Shown here piece by piece: positions 2,109-6,845 of a stretch of 6,845 nucleotides of DNA. The stretch is from an uncultured Asticcacaulis sp. (lineage in GTDB: Bacteria > Pseudomonadota > Alphaproteobacteria > Caulobacterales > Caulobacteraceae): positions 1 through 6,845 of the forward strand of contig CAMLPZ010000232.1 in assembly GCA_946482045.1 (NCBI GenBank). The letters run 5' to 3'. The notes beneath the pieces are model-generated. The model made no database searches. It was not told the origin of the DNA and saw only the letters and a program-made list of their open reading frames with translations. How positions within the stretch are numbered: position 1 is the stretch's first letter; the number at the start of each line of letters is the position of its first letter. A program made the translations under genes and the position numbers.

Positions 2109-2129
2109 AAGACCTGTATCGTAACATAG

Positions 2130-2163
2130 AAGCGCGGCTCTTCATCGGAGCCGCGCTTTTTTT
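2130..2163 (+). terminator. Intrinsic (Rho-independent) terminator of the TonB receptor gene
   Basis: A perfect 11-bp GC-rich stem (AAGCGCGGCTC at 2130-2140 with GAGCCGCGCTT at 2148-2158) encloses a 7-base loop and runs into a T tract at 2157-2163. It begins 21 bases after the receptor stop codon. It separates the receptor from the downstream regulator gene and argues against read-through between them. Confidence 0.93.
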
Positions 2164-2250: not shown

Positions 2251-2266
2251 AAGGGGCGATGCGGTG
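2251..2266 (+). promoter_or_regulatory. Ribosome binding site that decides the GTG start of the regulator
   Basis: AAGGGG at 2251-2256 lies 7 bases before GTG 2264-2266. The reading frame stays open upstream to a TTG at 2162, but that codon lies inside the T tract of the preceding terminator and the extra 34 residues do not resemble part of a DNA-binding domain. The out-of-frame ATG at 2259 meets a stop after seven codons. Confidence 0.7.
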
Positions 2267-3580
2267 TCAACCAGTCGGTTAGATGGGTGGAAGTCCATCG
2301 GCGCGCATTTCGGGCGCGACCGCACAACCGTCATGCGCTGGGCGCGTGAACGCGGCCTGCCCGTCAAGCGCATTCCGGGCGGCAAGACCGGTACCGTCTA
2401 TGCCATTAAGGAAGAGCTCGACCGCTGGGCCGCCAGCCAGTCCAATCTGGACGACGAGACGGCAAAGACGGCGGCCGCACCGGCCAGCTTTCGCACAAAT
2501 TCGCGGCAGCTGTGGATCGGGGGCGCCGCAGCCGGCGTGATCTTGGCGGGCACCATCACCTCAATTATGCTATGGGATCGTACCGCGCCATCACGCGCCC
2601 CTCTGCCGTCCGACCCGGCGGTCAGCGCCGCCTATCTGAAGGCGCGCGACGACTGGGCAAGGCGCACACCCGACACGCTCAACGCCGCCATCGCCGGTTT
2701 CGAGCTGACCACCCGCAGCGATCCGAACTTTGCGCCTGGCTGGTCAGGCCTGGCCGACGCCTATCTGCTGTCGCGGGAATTCGGCGCCATGTCTGATGGC
2801 GATGCCTTCCCAAAGGCCAAGGCTGCCGCTCAACGCGCCCTGACGCTCGACCCAAACCTCCCCGGCGCGCACCGGGCACTGGGCTTCATCCTCTACTGGT
2901 GGGAAGGCAAGCCCGCCGAAGCCGGCCGAGCCTTCCGCCGGGCGCTGGAACTCGATCCGTCGTCTGCGCAGTCGCACTTCTGGTACGGCAACATCCTGGT
3001 CGACAACGGCCAGCATGTCGCCGCGCAAAAGGAGCTCAACGCCGCCCGCCTGATCGAGCCCGGATCGGTCGCCATCCAGACGGACCTCGCTTGGGCGCGC
3101 TGGTCGGCCGGCGATACGGACGGCGCGCGAACGGCCATGACCGACCTGGTGCGTAGCCATCCCGATTTCGCCACCCTGCACGACTGCCTGTCGGTCATCG
3201 CTCTGGCCGATGGCGACTATGTCGGCTACGTCCAGAATTTGAGCGAATATGCCCGCCTCAGGGAGGACAGCGGCCTGATCCGGCATACGGCGGAGCTGCG
3301 CCAAGCGCTGAAATCCGGGGCCGCCGACGTTCAGCGTGTACTGATGACGGCGTCCATGGAGGAGATAAAGGCGGGGACGCGCCGAACCCATCTGTGGCCC
3401 ATATTTCTGGCCTCGGTGGCGCAGGACCGGCAGCAGACCCTGACCCTGCTGAAAGCCGCCGACCAACGCGGCGAGGTCTGGGGACAGGCCGGCATCACGG
3501 CGCGCATACTGCAGCTTTGGATGGGCGATGCTGAGATCAGCCAGTTGGTCCGGCGCCGCAAGGCGGCCTCGGTCCTCTGA
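2264..3580 (+). CDS. Transmembrane transcriptional regulator: HTH domain, one membrane helix, TPR domain
   Basis: The 438-residue protein looks like a one-component regulator built on the ToxR/CadC plan, with a DNA-binding head in the cytoplasm and a sensing part outside the inner membrane. Residues 6-55 form a helix-turn-helix module (LDGWKSIGAHFGRDRTTVMR, then GLPVKRIP and a YAIKEELDRW end). From memory this type is frequent in acidobacterial proteins, also ahead of membrane helices and TPR or propeller domains. Residues 83-103 are a single hydrophobic segment; Arg77 and Arg81 on its N-terminal side favour N-in topology. Residues 120-300 hold about four TPR units, with typical helix ends ALTLDP (192-197), ALELDP (227-232) and ARLIEP (261-266). 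Residues 300-438 continue as helix-rich sequence without a clear repeat. There is no kinase or receiver domain. Targets are unknown; the flanking receptor, the downstream secretin cluster or its own promoter are candidates. The GTG start is chosen by its ribosome binding site. Confidence 0.85.
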   Translation: MSTSRLDGWKSIGAHFGRDRTTVMRWARERGLPVKRIPGGKTGTVYAIKEELDRWAASQSNLDDETAKTAAAPASFRTNSRQLWIGGAAAGVILAGTITSIMLWDRTAPSRAPLPSDPAVSAAYLKARDDWARRTPDTLNAAIAGFELTTRSDPNFAPGWSGLADAYLLSREFGAMSDGDAFPKAKAAAQRALTLDPNLPGAHRALGFILYWWEGKPAEAGRAFRRALELDPSSAQSHFWYGNILVDNGQHVAAQKELNAARLIEPGSVAIQTDLAWARWSAGDTDGARTAMTDLVRSHPDFATLHDCLSVIALADGDYVGYVQNLSEYARLREDSGLIRHTAELRQALKSGAADVQRVLMTASMEEIKAGTRRTHLWPIFLASVAQDRQQTLTLLKAADQRGEVWGQAGITARILQLWMGDAEISQLVRRRKAASVL

Positions 3581-3711: not shown

Positions 3712-4284
3712 ATGGCCCATCCCACCCGCAGACTAACGCTAAAGGCGCTGATTGGCGCCACAGCCGCCGCGCCGTTCGCGTCCGGGGCAGCCGGCGCGCC
3801 GCGCTTCACGCCCTATCCGAACGTCAAGGCAGCGCTTATGGCGCGCCAGACCGGACTGTTCAAAATCGCCAGCCTGGGCGCCATTGAAATCATCCTCCTC
3901 TGCGTCAACGGCGCCGCGATCGATGTCCATGCCCGCCGCAACGGTATCTATCAACCGAAGGACGCTTCCCGCTCACACAGCCCGAAAGCGATGGCGCCGG
4001 TCGATTTCAACCGGCTCATCACCGCTGCCGGAGGGCTGAATACAGACGTCAACGGCAGCCCGCACCAAGCCGGCTTCTACGCACTTTACAACCGTCTCGC
4101 TGCCGCTCCCACGATTGACGCGTTCGGTGTGGTGCCCGTCGCCGGCGAGGTGGGTCAGCGCCTTGGTTTTTCCACCGACCCGTTCTTCGCCGGCTGGACC
4201 TTTGTCTATGACGCCCGCCCCGGCACCCTAACGTTCACCGCCGGAGATCTCCGCGCTCACTGGATTTTGGAGGGACATCCATGA
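3712..4284 (+). CDS. Small exported protein with twin-arginine-like signal, first gene of secretin cluster
   Basis: The product is a 190-residue protein of no family I recognise. It begins with T-R-R-L-T-L-K at residues 5-11, close to the Tat consensus S/T-R-R-x-F-L-K but with Thr in place of Phe. A short hydrophobic stretch and an AASGAAGA-type Ala/Gly region follow, with likely cleavage near residues 25-28. This suggests export through Tat, perhaps folded, but Sec export is not excluded. A second hydrophobic stretch (about 52-70, ending in LLCVNGAAIDV) could be a buried strand or a membrane segment. Cys64 is the only cysteine. The rest is mixed, with GWTFVYDARPGTLTF near the C-terminus looking like beta strands. 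The ATG at 3712 is preferred (GGAG ten bases upstream); a GTG at 3697 would add five residues before the signal. The stop codon overlaps the start of the secretin gene by ATGA, which implies coupled translation and a shared task. Confidence 0.75.
   Translation: MAHPTRRLTLKALIGATAAAPFASGAAGAPRFTPYPNVKAALMARQTGLFKIASLGAIEIILLCVNGAAIDVHARRNGIYQPKDASRSHSPKAMAPVDFNRLITAAGGLNTDVNGSPHQAGFYALYNRLAAAPTIDAFGVVPVAGEVGQRLGFSTDPFFAGWTFVYDARPGTLTFTAGDLRAHWILEGHP
4269..4284 (+). promoter_or_regulatory. Ribosome binding site and ATGA overlap coupling the Tat-type protein to the secretin
   Basis: GGAGGG at 4269-4274 lies six bases before ATG 4281. The start codon overlaps the TGA (4282-4284) of the upstream gene as ATGA. 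The strong site inside the upstream coding end and the overlap fix the secretin start and suggest termination-reinitiation that keeps the two products in proportion. Confidence 0.85.
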
Positions 4285-5891
4285 CCAAGATTTCACCTGT
4301 ACTGGCCTGCACCCTGCTGCTGGCCGGATTATCGGCCTGCGCCACAACCGGGGCCGGGCCTCACGCCACAGTGCCGGATACAGGGCTGAGCACTGCCGCT
4401 CGGGCCCTACTGGCGGGCGACACGGAAAAGGCGGTGCGCGGCTTCGGTGACGCGGCGGCGCGCAATCCGTCCGATGCCAATCGCCAGACCCTTCTGGCCC
4501 TCGCCTCGCAGCAGGCCGCTGGCGGCGATCCCGGCGCCCAGGACATTGCCGCCGCCGGCTACGATATGGCGCTGCGCAGTTCGCAAAACGCCTACTGGGC
4601 AGCGGTCCTGGCCGGCAAGGCGGCGCACGATCGCGGCCGCTACGTCCAGGCGCAAAGCTATTTTGCCCGCGCCGTGCTGGCACGCCCCGACGATCATCGC
4701 GCGCTGCTGGCTTTGGCCATCTCGGCCTATCTGGCCGGCGATCCGCAACTGGCGTCCTTGAGCGCTGCACGCGCCGCACAATCGGGTAACGCCACCTTGC
4801 GCAAGGACGCGCTGAAAATCAGCGCCCTGGCCCTTGCCGCCAGCGGCCGCGATGGCGAAGCCCACACGGTCCTCTCCGAGTTCCAAACCCTGGCCCCCAA
4901 TGAGGCGCCGACCATCCTCACTCGCGTCAACGAACTGATCCGCACCGGCGGCGCCGAGGCCGCAGCCGCTCCGGTGGAACCTACGGCGCCATCTACACCC
5001 GATCAGGTCTCCGTCGACGTCGCCATAATCCTGTCCCAGACCTCACAGCGCGACAGTATCGGGCTCAACCTGCTCGATGGCCTGCAGGCGCAATACGGCT
5101 TCCGCGAGGAAACGGTCGATAGCGGCGGCGGCAATATCGCGCGCACGGTGACCCAGGCGATTACCATTCCGCAGCTGACCTATAATCTCAATCTGTTCAA
5201 CCGCTTCGGCCAGTACTATCAGGTCGTCGCCCGGCCGATGCTGAGCGCCTATCGCGGCGAGCCCGCGGACTTCTTCGTCGGCCGCTCGGCCAAGGTCGCC
5301 GTTACGGGTATCAACTTCTCGCAACTGGAATCGATCGACATCGGCACCAATATCAAGGTGACGCCGCTTGACATCACGCCGGAACGCAGCCGGCTGAAGA
5401 TCGAGGTGACGCGCTCCTTTCTGTCGGGCGAACCGGCGGGTAACTTCAATGAATCGGTCAACACTTGGCGCCAGACGGTATCAACGACCGTCGAGGTCGA
5501 CTTCGGCAAGACGCTGATCCTGTCGGGCCTGTCCGAAAGCGTGCGCGACTCAAGCGCAACCAAGACACCGGTCATCGGTAATGCGCCAGTTGTCGGCTCG
5601 CTGTTTAACCGCCGCATCACCACCGATAAACGCGACGCCGTGCTGATCCTAGTGACGCCGTCGCCCGTCACCTCGTTCGATGCCCGGCCATGGGCGCGCC
5701 CTGCCGATGTCGAACGCCTGATCAGCCTGTGGAGCACGGTCGTCGCCCCCGGCAGCGATGCCGCCACCATTACCCAGCAGCTGGAACACGCCCGCCTGTT
5801 CACGCGCGGCCGCAAGGATGATGCCCGCCTCACCTGGCCCAGCCTGCCGCGCGACCAGGGCGAAATCGTCAAGGATTTGCTTATTCCGTAA
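4281..5891 (+). CDS. Lipid-anchored secretin with N-terminal TPR-like helices (outer-membrane channel)
   Basis: This 536-residue protein is predicted to form a multimeric outer-membrane channel, as in type II/III secretion, type IV pili and Tad systems. Residues 1-20 are a lipoprotein signal ending in the lipobox LSAC; Cys20 would be lipidated, and Ala at +2 fits outer-membrane sorting. Residues 35-225 are Ala-rich helical pairs of TPR type (for example RYVQAQSYFARAVLARPDD, 120-138). A Pro/Ala linker (229-241) leads to the secretin domain at about 243-464. This contains VVARPMLSAYRGEPADFFVG (315-334), then the family signature TPVIGNAPVVGSLFNRR (429-445) and an LILVTP strand end. From memory this block most resembles CpaC/RcpA-type secretins. 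No N0-N3 or BON domain is apparent. A 72-residue tail follows the barrel. The self-lipidated form recalls liposecretins such as HxcQ, which need no separate pilotin. No ATPase, pilin or platform gene is in view, so the system it serves is unknown. Confidence 0.93.
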   Translation: MTKISPVLACTLLLAGLSACATTGAGPHATVPDTGLSTAARALLAGDTEKAVRGFGDAAARNPSDANRQTLLALASQQAAGGDPGAQDIAAAGYDMALRSSQNAYWAAVLAGKAAHDRGRYVQAQSYFARAVLARPDDHRALLALAISAYLAGDPQLASLSAARAAQSGNATLRKDALKISALALAASGRDGEAHTVLSEFQTLAPNEAPTILTRVNELIRTGGAEAAAAPVEPTAPSTPDQVSVDVAIILSQTSQRDSIGLNLLDGLQAQYGFREETVDSGGGNIARTVTQAITIPQLTYNLNLFNRFGQYYQVVARPMLSAYRGEPADFFVGRSAKVAVTGINFSQLESIDIGTNIKVTPLDITPERSRLKIEVTRSFLSGEPAGNFNESVNTWRQTVSTTVEVDFGKTLILSGLSESVRDSSATKTPVIGNAPVVGSLFNRRITTDKRDAVLILVTPSPVTSFDARPWARPADVERLISLWSTVVAPGSDAATITQQLEHARLFTRGRKDDARLTWPSLPRDQGEIVKDLLIP

Positions 5892-5917
5892 TTCCTGAAA
5901 ATATGAAAGGTGATGTC

Positions 5918-6412
5918 ATGCGTAAAGTGCTTGTTGTACCGGCCATTCTGTCCACCTTGTTGCCGCTGAGCCTGCTGCAAAACGCGCCGGCCGAGGCCAA
6001 GCAGGACTGCGTTGCCGTCATGCAGTTGGTCGGCGTTCCCGCCGATGTTGCCGCCGCCTCCGACGAAAGTGAAGGGGACGAGGATGGCGATGGAGATGTC
6101 TGGGTCAACCAGGGCGGCGGCCGGATGATCGGCTTTATCGACTGCAAGAAGATGCCGGGCGCCAAGAATGGCGACACCTACACTCAAAATTACGACACCG
6201 GCAAAACGCGCAAGACCGGCAATGACCTGCACACCGCGCTGATCGGCGTCGACCTGCGCAGCCGCAGCACCGCCAGTTCGTCGCGGTCGGGTTCCAGCTC
6301 AAGCTCATCCAGCCAAACCGGCGCCAGCCGCCCCGCCACTTCGGGCAGCGACGACGGCGCGGCCCCCACCGTGCCGGGCAAGAAGCGCGCCCCCGTCAAG
6401 GCCACGCAATAG
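5918..6412 (+). CDS. Small secreted protein with acidic segment and serine-rich tail
   Basis: The 164-residue product is not recognised. Residues 1-27 form a Sec signal peptide (RK, hydrophobic core, NAPAEA end). The mature part has two cysteines (31 and 76), which may form a disulfide around a compact domain of about 50 residues. Between them lies an acidic run (49-60) containing D-E-D-G-D-G-D at 54-60; this fits the DxDxDG start of calcium-binding loops, but the usual acidic residue at loop position 12 is Gln65. Residues 115-132 are serine-rich with seven consecutive Ser (126-132), followed by a Pro/Lys/Arg-rich basic end (PGKKRAPVKATQ). Such a tail suggests a flexible spacer or an attachment to cell wall or polysaccharide. 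ATG 5918 is chosen because AAGG (5907-5910) lies seven bases upstream; an in-frame ATG at 5903 lacks such a site. It starts 26 bases after the secretin stop, so the two genes are probably co-transcribed. It could be cargo or an accessory part of the channel. Confidence 0.8.
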   Translation: MRKVLVVPAILSTLLPLSLLQNAPAEAKQDCVAVMQLVGVPADVAAASDESEGDEDGDGDVWVNQGGGRMIGFIDCKKMPGAKNGDTYTQNYDTGKTRKTGNDLHTALIGVDLRSRSTASSSRSGSSSSSSSQTGASRPATSGSDDGAAPTVPGKKRAPVKATQ

Positions 6413-6440
6413 TCCTTCAAATCTCAACAAGGAGATGATC

Positions 6441-6845
6441 ATGCGTACACTGACTATTCTGATAGCCACCCTCCTTCTTCCGGCGACCTCCGCCTACGCC
6501 TCGGTCGAAAGTATGGCCTATCCACGCGACGGCGACCGCAACTGTGCCACCGCCCAAGAAAACAACAACTTCGCCCTGTGGCGTCCGTCTGATGGCCGCC
6601 TGGTCATCGGCGGTGAAGGCAAGGCGCAGTTTGAATTTTACGGCCACGGCATCGACCTGTCGCCGGATGCCCAGCTTACCGGCATCAGCGGCGCAAAGGC
6701 GAAACGTGTCGAGGCCCGTGGTGGCGCGGTCAATGGCGCGCGCGGCTGCGGCAATATCGGTTCGATCATTGTCGAGATCGTTTTGCCGAACGTGGGCTCG
6801 GCGAATAACGGGACCCTGCGCATCGGCAGCGAAACCATTCCGTTC
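6441..6845 (+). CDS. Secreted, probably beta-rich protein of unknown function (3' end outside window)
   Basis: The frame stays open from ATG 6441 to the right edge, giving 135 residues so far. Residues 1-20 are a Sec signal peptide (MRTLTILIATLLLPATSAYA) with an A-Y-A cleavage site. The mature part has two cysteines (35 and 103) and several likely beta strands, such as GRLVIGG (52-58), AQFEFYGHGIDL (62-73), SIIVEIVLPNV (108-118) and GTLRIG (124-129). The spacing of Gly-ended strands recalls Ig-like IPT/TIG folds, but this likeness is weak and I do not assign a family. AAGGAG (6429-6434) lies six bases before ATG 6441; an in-frame ATG at 6435 is too close to that site. The gene starts 28 bases after the preceding stop with no terminator between, so it belongs to the same unit as the secretin. 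The cysteine count and small exported character parallel its neighbour. Confidence 0.8.
   Translation, partial: MRTLTILIATLLLPATSAYASVESMAYPRDGDRNCATAQENNNFALWRPSDGRLVIGGEGKAQFEFYGHGIDLSPDAQLTGISGAKAKRVEARGGAVNGARGCGNIGSIIVEIVLPNVGSANNGTLRIGSETIPF

Follow-up and report, generated by a model that had tools for sequence, protein, structure and literature searches.

Secretins are known as the outer-membrane gate of larger machines, which dock on their N-domains. What, then, can a secretin do when these domains are absent and a helical module stands in their place? This question is raised by a gene from an uncultured Asticcacaulis sp. (contig CAMLPZ010000232.1, forward strand; the whole stretch of 6,845 nucleotides that was analysed is called the window). 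Its product, hereafter the TPR-secretin, is a putative lipoprotein in which tetratricopeptide repeats (TPRs) are followed directly by a secretin core. The family to which it belongs may mark an undescribed protein export route in bacteria. We propose, with about even confidence for and against, that the TPR-secretin is a self-piloting, stand-alone gated channel that exports periplasmic proteins, its TPR module serving as both pilotin and cargo receptor. If this is true, a secretin can act as an exporter on its own, in a family without N-domains and with its own TPR module; it would offer a compact and tractable setting in which to study the purpose of pilotins and N-domains. The unannotated exported proteins encoded beside it could constitute a novel class of surface protein.

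A TPR module fused to a secretin core

The initial annotation had assigned the open reading frame (ORF) 4281..5891 to a liposecretin on account of a secretin signature and a lipobox cysteine, Cys20, and had proposed that TPR-like helices replace the N0-N3 or BON domains. The coordinates of the ORF are exact, and the signature TPVIGNAPVVGSLF and the lipobox are both present in its translation. In Pfam searches, Secretin (PF00263) matched residues 313-461 (79.5 bits, cut-off 27.5) and TPR_14 residues 108-146 (31.2 bits, cut-off 23.5); the core starts before the Pfam match, as the TIGR02516 alignment runs from residue 240. Eight Pfam families matched the protein at E values up to 1, and STN, Secretin_N, BON and pil_N are not among them; nor did N0, N1 or N3 match at that threshold. 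A single-chain AlphaFold2 model (43 sequences; mean predicted local distance difference test (pLDDT) score 72.6, predicted TM-score 0.52) has 11 helices at residues 34-225, with block-mean pLDDT mostly 85-95, then a short linker and a first core strand from residue 242; as modelled, there is no room for an N3 or BON domain between the TPR module and the core. The first 40 Foldseek rows are secretins.

The search was extended to 48 TPR-secretins (the protein of the window, those of loci L001-L030 and 17 of 18 further loci, L100 being left out; L101/L108, L102/L103 and L104/L105 are near-duplicates). N0/N1/N3, STN, Secretin_N, pil_N and BON matched 0/48 at an E value of 1e-3. The 48 proteins hit 15 Pfam families, Secretin in 48/48 and TPR_16 by itself in 36/48. 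The controls were 26 ordinary secretins from 14 host genomes, taken from the 30 secretin loci L031-L060, four of which encode TPR-secretins and were set aside; several are cut at the N-terminus by the end of the locus, and 18 of the 48 secretin matches in the host genomes, TPR-secretins and ordinary ones among them, have no locus. All 26 controls carry an N-domain over the cut-off (Secretin_N in 16, pil_N in 10). The 10 with pil_N also match BON at E <= 1e-3, seven of them over the BON cut-off, and gspD_N0, STN and AMIN were matched by 10, 6 and 4 controls. As N-domains were detected in 26/26 ordinary secretins and in 0/48 TPR-secretins, these data argue for a true absence of the N-domains rather than for a failure to detect them, and the proposed replacement by TPR helices is borne out.

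In a tree of the core, built without secretins of the type III secretion system (T3SS) or of phages, a branch supported at 100/100 separates all 48 TPR-secretins from the 26 ordinary secretins; the tree program warned of meeting long branches (among others T_L113, T_L106, T_L111, T_L114, N_L059 and N_L060). The nearest relative of the protein of the window is that of Asticcacaulis solisilvae (L002), 89% identical. L040 (G005:C11:249134-249604), a short secretin with Secretin_N on a contig without T2SSF, falls outside the TPR family in this tree and is possibly an orphan.

NCBIfam secretin models match the TPR-secretin in the core only and far under their cut-offs: 54.5 bits against 351.35 for TIGR02517 (GspD of the type II secretion system, T2SS), 47.9 against 284.35 for TIGR02515 (PilQ of type IV pili, T4P), 55 against 238.45 for TIGR02516 (SctC of the T3SS) and 27.9 against 750 for NF042912 (the TPR-PilQ of Akkermansia), the last over residues 398-459 only. 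The protein thus has the core domain of the secretin superfamily, the lipobox of liposecretins and, as in the Akkermansia type, TPR and secretin in one chain; the N0 and Secretin_N of GspD/PilQ, the pil_N and BON-type domains of CpaC/RcpA and the T2SS context with N-domains of HxcQ-like proteins were not found. An ordinary CpaC, GspD or PilQ is ruled out by the missing N-domains, the low family scores and the gene context, and a T3SS secretin by its family score. FHIPEP has one match in 10 of the 11 hosts tested, as a flagellum predicts, and two in G001, where a T3SS is conceivable. In a viral library two rows reached E <= 0.001, the best (1.4e-10) being an unnamed viral protein, and the viral context was sought no further.

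How widespread is this fusion? A search at E <= 1e-3 returned 107 homologues of 33-93% identity. Most of them are pre-annotated with both TPR and Secretin domains (Secretin alone in about 16 rows and TPR alone in one), and the fusion is therefore not due to chance. Loci were named in Asticcacaulis, Caulobacter metagenome-assembled genomes, sphingomonads, Aquisalinus, Aestuariibacter, Methylophilus, Inhella, Pseudoxanthomonas, Thiolinea and others, and a deeper branch lies at 22-30% identity. Within Pseudomonadota, 15 of 398 genomes match at 1e-20, about 11 of them with both parts (G281, G290 and G302 have the core only, G191 the TPR only, and G040 the parts on separate contigs). Matches were found in 15/149 genomes of the Caulobacteraceae, the family of G001, at 1e-30 (11 over 750 bits), in 6/298 of the family of G007 and, at 1e-10, in 11/25 genomes of the genus Asticcacaulis. 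The TPR-secretin family is thus sparse in Pseudomonadota, in agreement with the initial view of an uncommon architecture. In Asticcacaulis sp. AND118 the gene lies on a 135-kb plasmid. A related TPR fragment, P0107, is filed under the fungus Friedmanniomyces endolithicus and is probably a bacterial contamination of that assembly.

Platform genes of known secretion machines

The window is too short to show a Tad or T2SS context. Some T2SSE and T2SSF are present in each of the 14 host genomes. In 13 of these hosts no T2SSF platform gene was found 10 kb or less from the TPR-secretin, the G011 contig stopping 1.4 kb from it; the exception is G009, with a T2SSF gene 6.4 kb away. This is not the setting of an ordinary CpaC or GspD within a complete Tad or T2SS locus. 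No Tad or T2SS gene is listed within 15 kb in L001, the locus of a close relative, for which the gene table may be incomplete. These data indicate that the TPR-secretin is genomically separate from T2SS, T4P and Tad platform genes in nearly all hosts tested.

Five of the 14 hosts (G001, G003, G004, G005 and G008) carry just two T2SSF domains, which adjoin each other like those of TadB/TadC; in the first four hosts the pair lies next to a CpaF-like ATPase and to an ordinary secretin distinct from the TPR-secretin. Such a pair and no more is also found in G444, G453, G488, G498 and G518 of a second host set (n=25), apart from a third match under the cut-off in G518. Two members of that set, G371 and G375, closely related to each other and possibly incomplete, lack T2SSF altogether, and the TPR-secretin is the one secretin of each; the T2SSF search was positive in 13 of 14 control genomes. 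Among the Asticcacaulis hosts, the Tad pair is the only T2SSF pair in 9/11.

Could the TPR-secretin then be a second, exchangeable secretin for the Tad pilus, which assembles by itself while the Tad motor extrudes another filament or protein? Such a role is consistent with the T2SSF proteins of all 14 hosts, with a Tad-like cluster 6.4 kb away in G009 and with RcpA (8odn) as best match in the PDB and best solved relative by sequence. However, the Tad cluster of G001, G003, G004 and G005 has its own secretin beside CpaF, G371 and G375 are devoid of T2SSF proteins, no N-domain is left to dock, and a platform gene lies within 10 kb in only one of the 14 hosts; we consider this role quite unlikely. 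Full-length T2SSE proteins of more than 300 bits in 8/14 hosts (G002, G006, G007 and G010-G014) would suit a T2SS secretin served by platform proteins encoded elsewhere, but no T2SSE exceeds 230 bits in G001, G003, G004, G005, G008 and G009, all of which have another secretin, and the TPR-secretin offers no N0 domain for GspC binding. To this last explanation we give hardly any credence.

These observations also bear on the idea that the helices form a periplasmic vestibule with a docking partner of another kind. That TPRs replace the N-domains holds, whereas the vestibule and its contact with the inner membrane stay hypothetical. The putative lipid anchor, Cys20, precedes the first TPR helix by only 14 residues and would keep the TPRs at the outer membrane, as in the TadD/PilF pilotins; with the anchor so close, such a placement seems more natural than a vestibule reaching deep into the periplasm. 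In two hosts, moreover, there is no type IV-filament platform protein on which the helices could dock.

Exported and signalling proteins encoded next to the TPR-secretin

The window contains a run of genes on the same strand, comprising C4, C5, the TPR-secretin, C20 and the start of C1 (Table 1). The TPR-secretin start overlaps the preceding ORF, C5, by 4 bases, and GGAGGG stands upstream of its ATG. Five terminator-like sites were found where 4.1 are expected by chance, the stem in front of the run being by far the longest. Rfam (gathering scores) and tRNA scans of the window gave no match.

Table 1. Coordinates of the features in the window, by position.
Feature	Positions	Strand	Basis and remarks
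Terminator-like stem, 14 pairs, then T run	2128..2160	+	Between TonB-dependent receptor and operon
Family C4: putative DNA-binding helix-turn-helix (HTH), one hydrophobic segment, TPRs	2264..3580	+	GTG 2264 by eye; mechanical ORF from 2162
Family C5: probably exported, twin-arginine	3712..4284	+	ATG 3712 by eye; mechanical ORF from 3697
TPR-secretin coding sequence, 536 aa	4281..5891	+	ATG 4281, stop 5889-5891; ORF, profile search, model
Signal peptide and lipobox LSAC, putative lipid-acceptor Cys20 at 4338-4340	4281..4340	+	Sequence pattern
TPR module, residues 34-225, 11 helices	4380..4955	+	Pfam, AlphaFold2 model, fold comparison
Secretin core, residues ~240-464	4998..5672	+	Pfam, TIGR02516, PDB match, model, Foldseek
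Conserved C-terminal tail, residues 465-536; predicted helices 475-488, 494-502, 522-534	5673..5888	+	Alignment, model
Family C20: probably exported Ser-rich small protein	5903..6412	+	ORF, cluster comparison
Family C1: Sec-exported, predicted all-beta, cut by window end	6435..6845	+	ORF, clusters, model

Neighbours were clustered by single linkage on BLAST matches, using mechanical ORFs from 31 sources (the window and 30 loci). C4 and C5 occur in 9/31 sources, namely the window and eight Asticcacaulis loci, where C4 lies upstream of the TPR-secretin; L009, the remaining one of nine Asticcacaulis loci, has a kinase and a regulator in their place. Most sphingomonad, Caulobacter and Aquisalinus loci encode C2, a histidine kinase, and C3, a regulator of the LuxR type. 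L012, L023, L027, L028 and L030 have C9, a Ser/Thr kinase that carries TPRs and, in L023 and L027 at least, a DNA-binding part; L024 and L026 have a histidine kinase with a weak seven-transmembrane (7TM) match. C4 matches HTH_17 at 20.4 bits, under the cut-off of 27, and its TPRs over the cut-off; it resembles a one-component membrane sensor, with a putative DNA-binding part, a hydrophobic segment and probably periplasmic TPRs. The DNA-binding Ser/Thr kinase of other loci likewise has TPRs at its end.

Exported families recur as well: C1 in 13 of the 31 sources, C6, C7 and C8 in 5 each and C10 in 4, with C6, C7 and C10 occurring across clades. C5 has a twin-arginine motif ([ST]RR) near the N-terminus in 9/9 members, and C20 has a relative in L002 only among the 30 loci compared. 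By a rough pattern of our own, applied to 24 of the 31 sources, 44/72 neighbours in same-strand runs have a signal peptide, against 73/283 other genes of those 24 loci (Fisher p 4e-8, a guide only, since the loci are related). Comparison of neighbourhoods that share the TPR-secretin order thus shows exported proteins together with signalling genes. Small exported proteins lie directly or closely downstream of the TPR-secretin at L006:14019-14447, L024:11661-12053, L026:11646-12020 and L017:11617-12033; judged by eye, these four consist of a coiled coil followed by short repeated strands and look like a needle tip, the one from L024 having a weak DUF2345 match (12.9 bits, cut-off 30.7).

The commonest Pfam families among 133 neighbour proteins (of 139 from 25 loci) are response regulators (16), HATPase (13) and LuxR (10); among the 64 deep-branch neighbours (64/64 proteins of the wider clade) they are cyclic-nucleotide binding (6), MscS (5), pentapeptide (3) and SBP_bac_3 (3). 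Neither T2SSE nor T2SSF is among the 25 commonest families of either set (86 and 55 families, respectively), a count that does not cover the rarer ones. The deep-branch TPR-secretins of L102, L103, L104, L105, L112, L116 and L117 adjoin family D7, whose members in L104 and L112 are MscS channels that carry a cyclic-nucleotide domain; L104 also has a pentapeptide-repeat lipoprotein and an SBP_bac_3 protein. In L101 and L108, from G371 and G375, large proteins of two shared families stand on both sides of the TPR-secretin, with Tectonin in both in L108.

This inventory bears on whether the exported substrate might be a non-protein polymer, a periplasmic TPR guiding a polysaccharide to an outer-membrane barrel in the manner of PgaA or BcsC. 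PgaA is a single-chain porin and no secretin; no polysaccharide synthase is among the 25 commonest of the 86 families, Glycos_transf_2 occurs once among the 64 wider-clade neighbours, and many neighbours are exported proteins. A polymer exporter therefore seems very unlikely, although the order of signal, TPR and outer-membrane channel domain is shared, the TPR part has weak NCBIfam matches to PgaA and BcsC, and the PgaA TPR binds poly-N-acetylglucosamine (PNAG) according to PMC9384988.

The most frequent exported neighbour, C1, is Sec-exported and has no Pfam match over the cut-off; its fold comparison gave Ig-like matches only, which are uninformative, and a search of the protein collection gave 11 matches. 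C1 is present in 8/149 genomes of the family and 8/25 of the genus Asticcacaulis. All eight are among the 11 with a TPR-secretin, three of which lack C1 (hypergeometric 1.5e-4 within the genus, assuming independent genomes, which they are not). In G003 and G004, C1 lies away from the TPR-secretin (97 kb and on another contig, respectively); as the C1 neighbourhood is alike in both, they were counted as one event. The link between C1 and the TPR-secretin thus survives without physical linkage. Shared ancestry of the exported neighbours was rejected, as only one pair, C1-C35, exceeded 40% probability in profile comparison (44.9%, 92 columns). In Asticcacaulis currens (G498; L008:13104-14384) the C1 gene is broken by a stop and may be decaying.

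Rather than passing through a channel as soluble proteins, the exported C1, C6, C10, C11 and C16 might polymerise or stack outside the cell, with the TPR-secretin as the base of a surface structure. The predicted all-beta fold of C1 with its Ig-like matches, the coiled coil and repeating short strands of C16 (by eye) and the genomic linkage of exported families to the TPR-secretin are consistent with such a scaffold, which we regard as unlikely yet worth keeping in mind.

A proposed export route and its relation to known systems

For the self-piloting channel, the following order of events is suggested. Sec would export the TPR-secretin, and the Lol pathway would carry it to the outer membrane by means of a lipidated Cys20. 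The TPR groove would take up the conserved tail at the C-terminus, either its own or that of an adjacent subunit, much as TadD does with the RcpA tail, and this binding would drive the subunits to assemble into a multimeric ring. Once complete, the ring would be a gated channel independent of any pilus or pseudopilus motor. Judging from the operons, the cargo may include C1, C5 and further proteins that reach the periplasm through Sec or Tat; the channel would presumably pass it to the surface, and the TPR ring around the channel entrance could select it. More tentatively, and with rather less conviction than doubt, we suggest a new Pseudomonadota export pathway in which a motor-less, self-piloting secretin brings Sec- or Tat-exported cargo to the surface, with clade-specific envelope sensors as the switch; these would be the HTH-TPR regulator, the histidine kinase with the LuxR regulator, or the DNA-binding Ser/Thr kinase with TPRs.

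A stand-alone channel for proteins is favoured by the missing N-domains, the single family, the hosts with a Tad pair only or with no T2SSF, the exported neighbours and the co-occurrence of C1. Self-piloting is favoured by an order of parts that recalls TadD, here within one chain: Cys20, then a loose stretch and 11 helices, with a conserved tail at the far end. In an alignment of 43 TPR-secretins (that of the window and 42 of the 107 homologues, hand-picked to span identities), mean column identity is 0.553 in the tail, 0.573 in the TPR part and 0.723 in the core, and an F-x-R...D pattern is seen by eye in many of the 48 tails. In the fold comparison, the model ranges of four p67phox rows start at residues 25-30 and stop at 535 or 536 (rmsd ~3); the rows give first and last residues only, and in the model some residues of the tail helices appear to pack against the TPRs.

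Several observations weigh against this proposal. The core of the single-chain model is only modest in confidence, and the fold comparison did not set PilW/PilF apart from other TPR proteins. Lipidation, as judged by lipobox patterns, does not appear to be general across the family: of the 43 aligned proteins 29 fit the strict pattern, one more a looser one and 13 neither, of which two are cut at the start, five have a near-lipobox Cys by eye and six look complete without Cys in the first 60 residues. These six apparently complete members require a placement without lipid. The G009 cluster (Novosphingobium arvoryzae, L122/L019) contains platform genes and is a second Tad-like cluster; the genomes without any platform protein belong to the deep branch (22-30% identity) and not to the clade of the window; and the two remaining Asticcacaulis hosts of 11, G002 and G508, have two more T2SSF domains, a second platform system. 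Finally, the neighbour proteins vary from clade to clade, and the co-occurrence of C1 comes from one genus, with no correction for kinship.

How does the TPR-secretin compare with known systems? A close parallel is TadD, described in PMC10499894 as an 11-helix TPR lipoprotein that is lipidated at Cys17 and has a flexible stretch; its groove takes up the C-terminus of RcpA. It is the last four residues of RcpA that bind, and without them no secretin forms. The protein of the window shares the secretin core of RcpA/CpaC and has a predicted module of 11 TPR helices behind a lipobox, whose groove may likewise receive the secretin tail; in contrast, it is one chain without N-domain, has a different tail sequence and has no Tad genes in its operon. 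HxcQ, a T2SS secretin with N-domains, is presumably the liposecretin known to be independent of a pilotin. It shares a lipobox-bearing secretin with the protein of the window, which differs in having TPRs, no N-domains and no T2SS context. In BcsC, a periplasmic TPR domain is joined to an outer-membrane channel domain. PMC9384988 gives the same arrangement for PgaA. These two are polysaccharide porins, whereas the protein of the window is a secretin. That a liposecretin can dispense with a pilotin is stated in PMC4311626, citing Viarre et al. 2009.

The initial annotation had correctly pointed to a TPR-secretin fusion in Akkermansia; this is Amuc_1098/PilQ. As given in PMC4960237, this protein of 907 aa has TPRs at residues 71-239, already likened to pilotins, a secretin domain at 650-876 and a predicted role in type IV pili. 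It shares N-terminal TPRs and a C-terminal secretin in one protein, but some 410 residues separate the two, whereas they are fused directly in the protein of the window. KilC of the Myxococcus Kil apparatus is a short secretin without N0 (PMC8460266); unlike the TPR-secretin it lies in a Tad-like locus, and the main text of that paper makes no mention of TPR. Our literature search, outside which most subscription journals fall, found no publication on the TPR-secretin family. A TPR-secretin fusion (Akkermansia PilQ, PMC4960237) and an N0-less secretin (KilC, PMC8460266) are already in print; what is new here is the direct fusion of TPRs to a bare core, its occurrence as a single large family, the two T2SSF-free hosts and the linkage to exported proteins.

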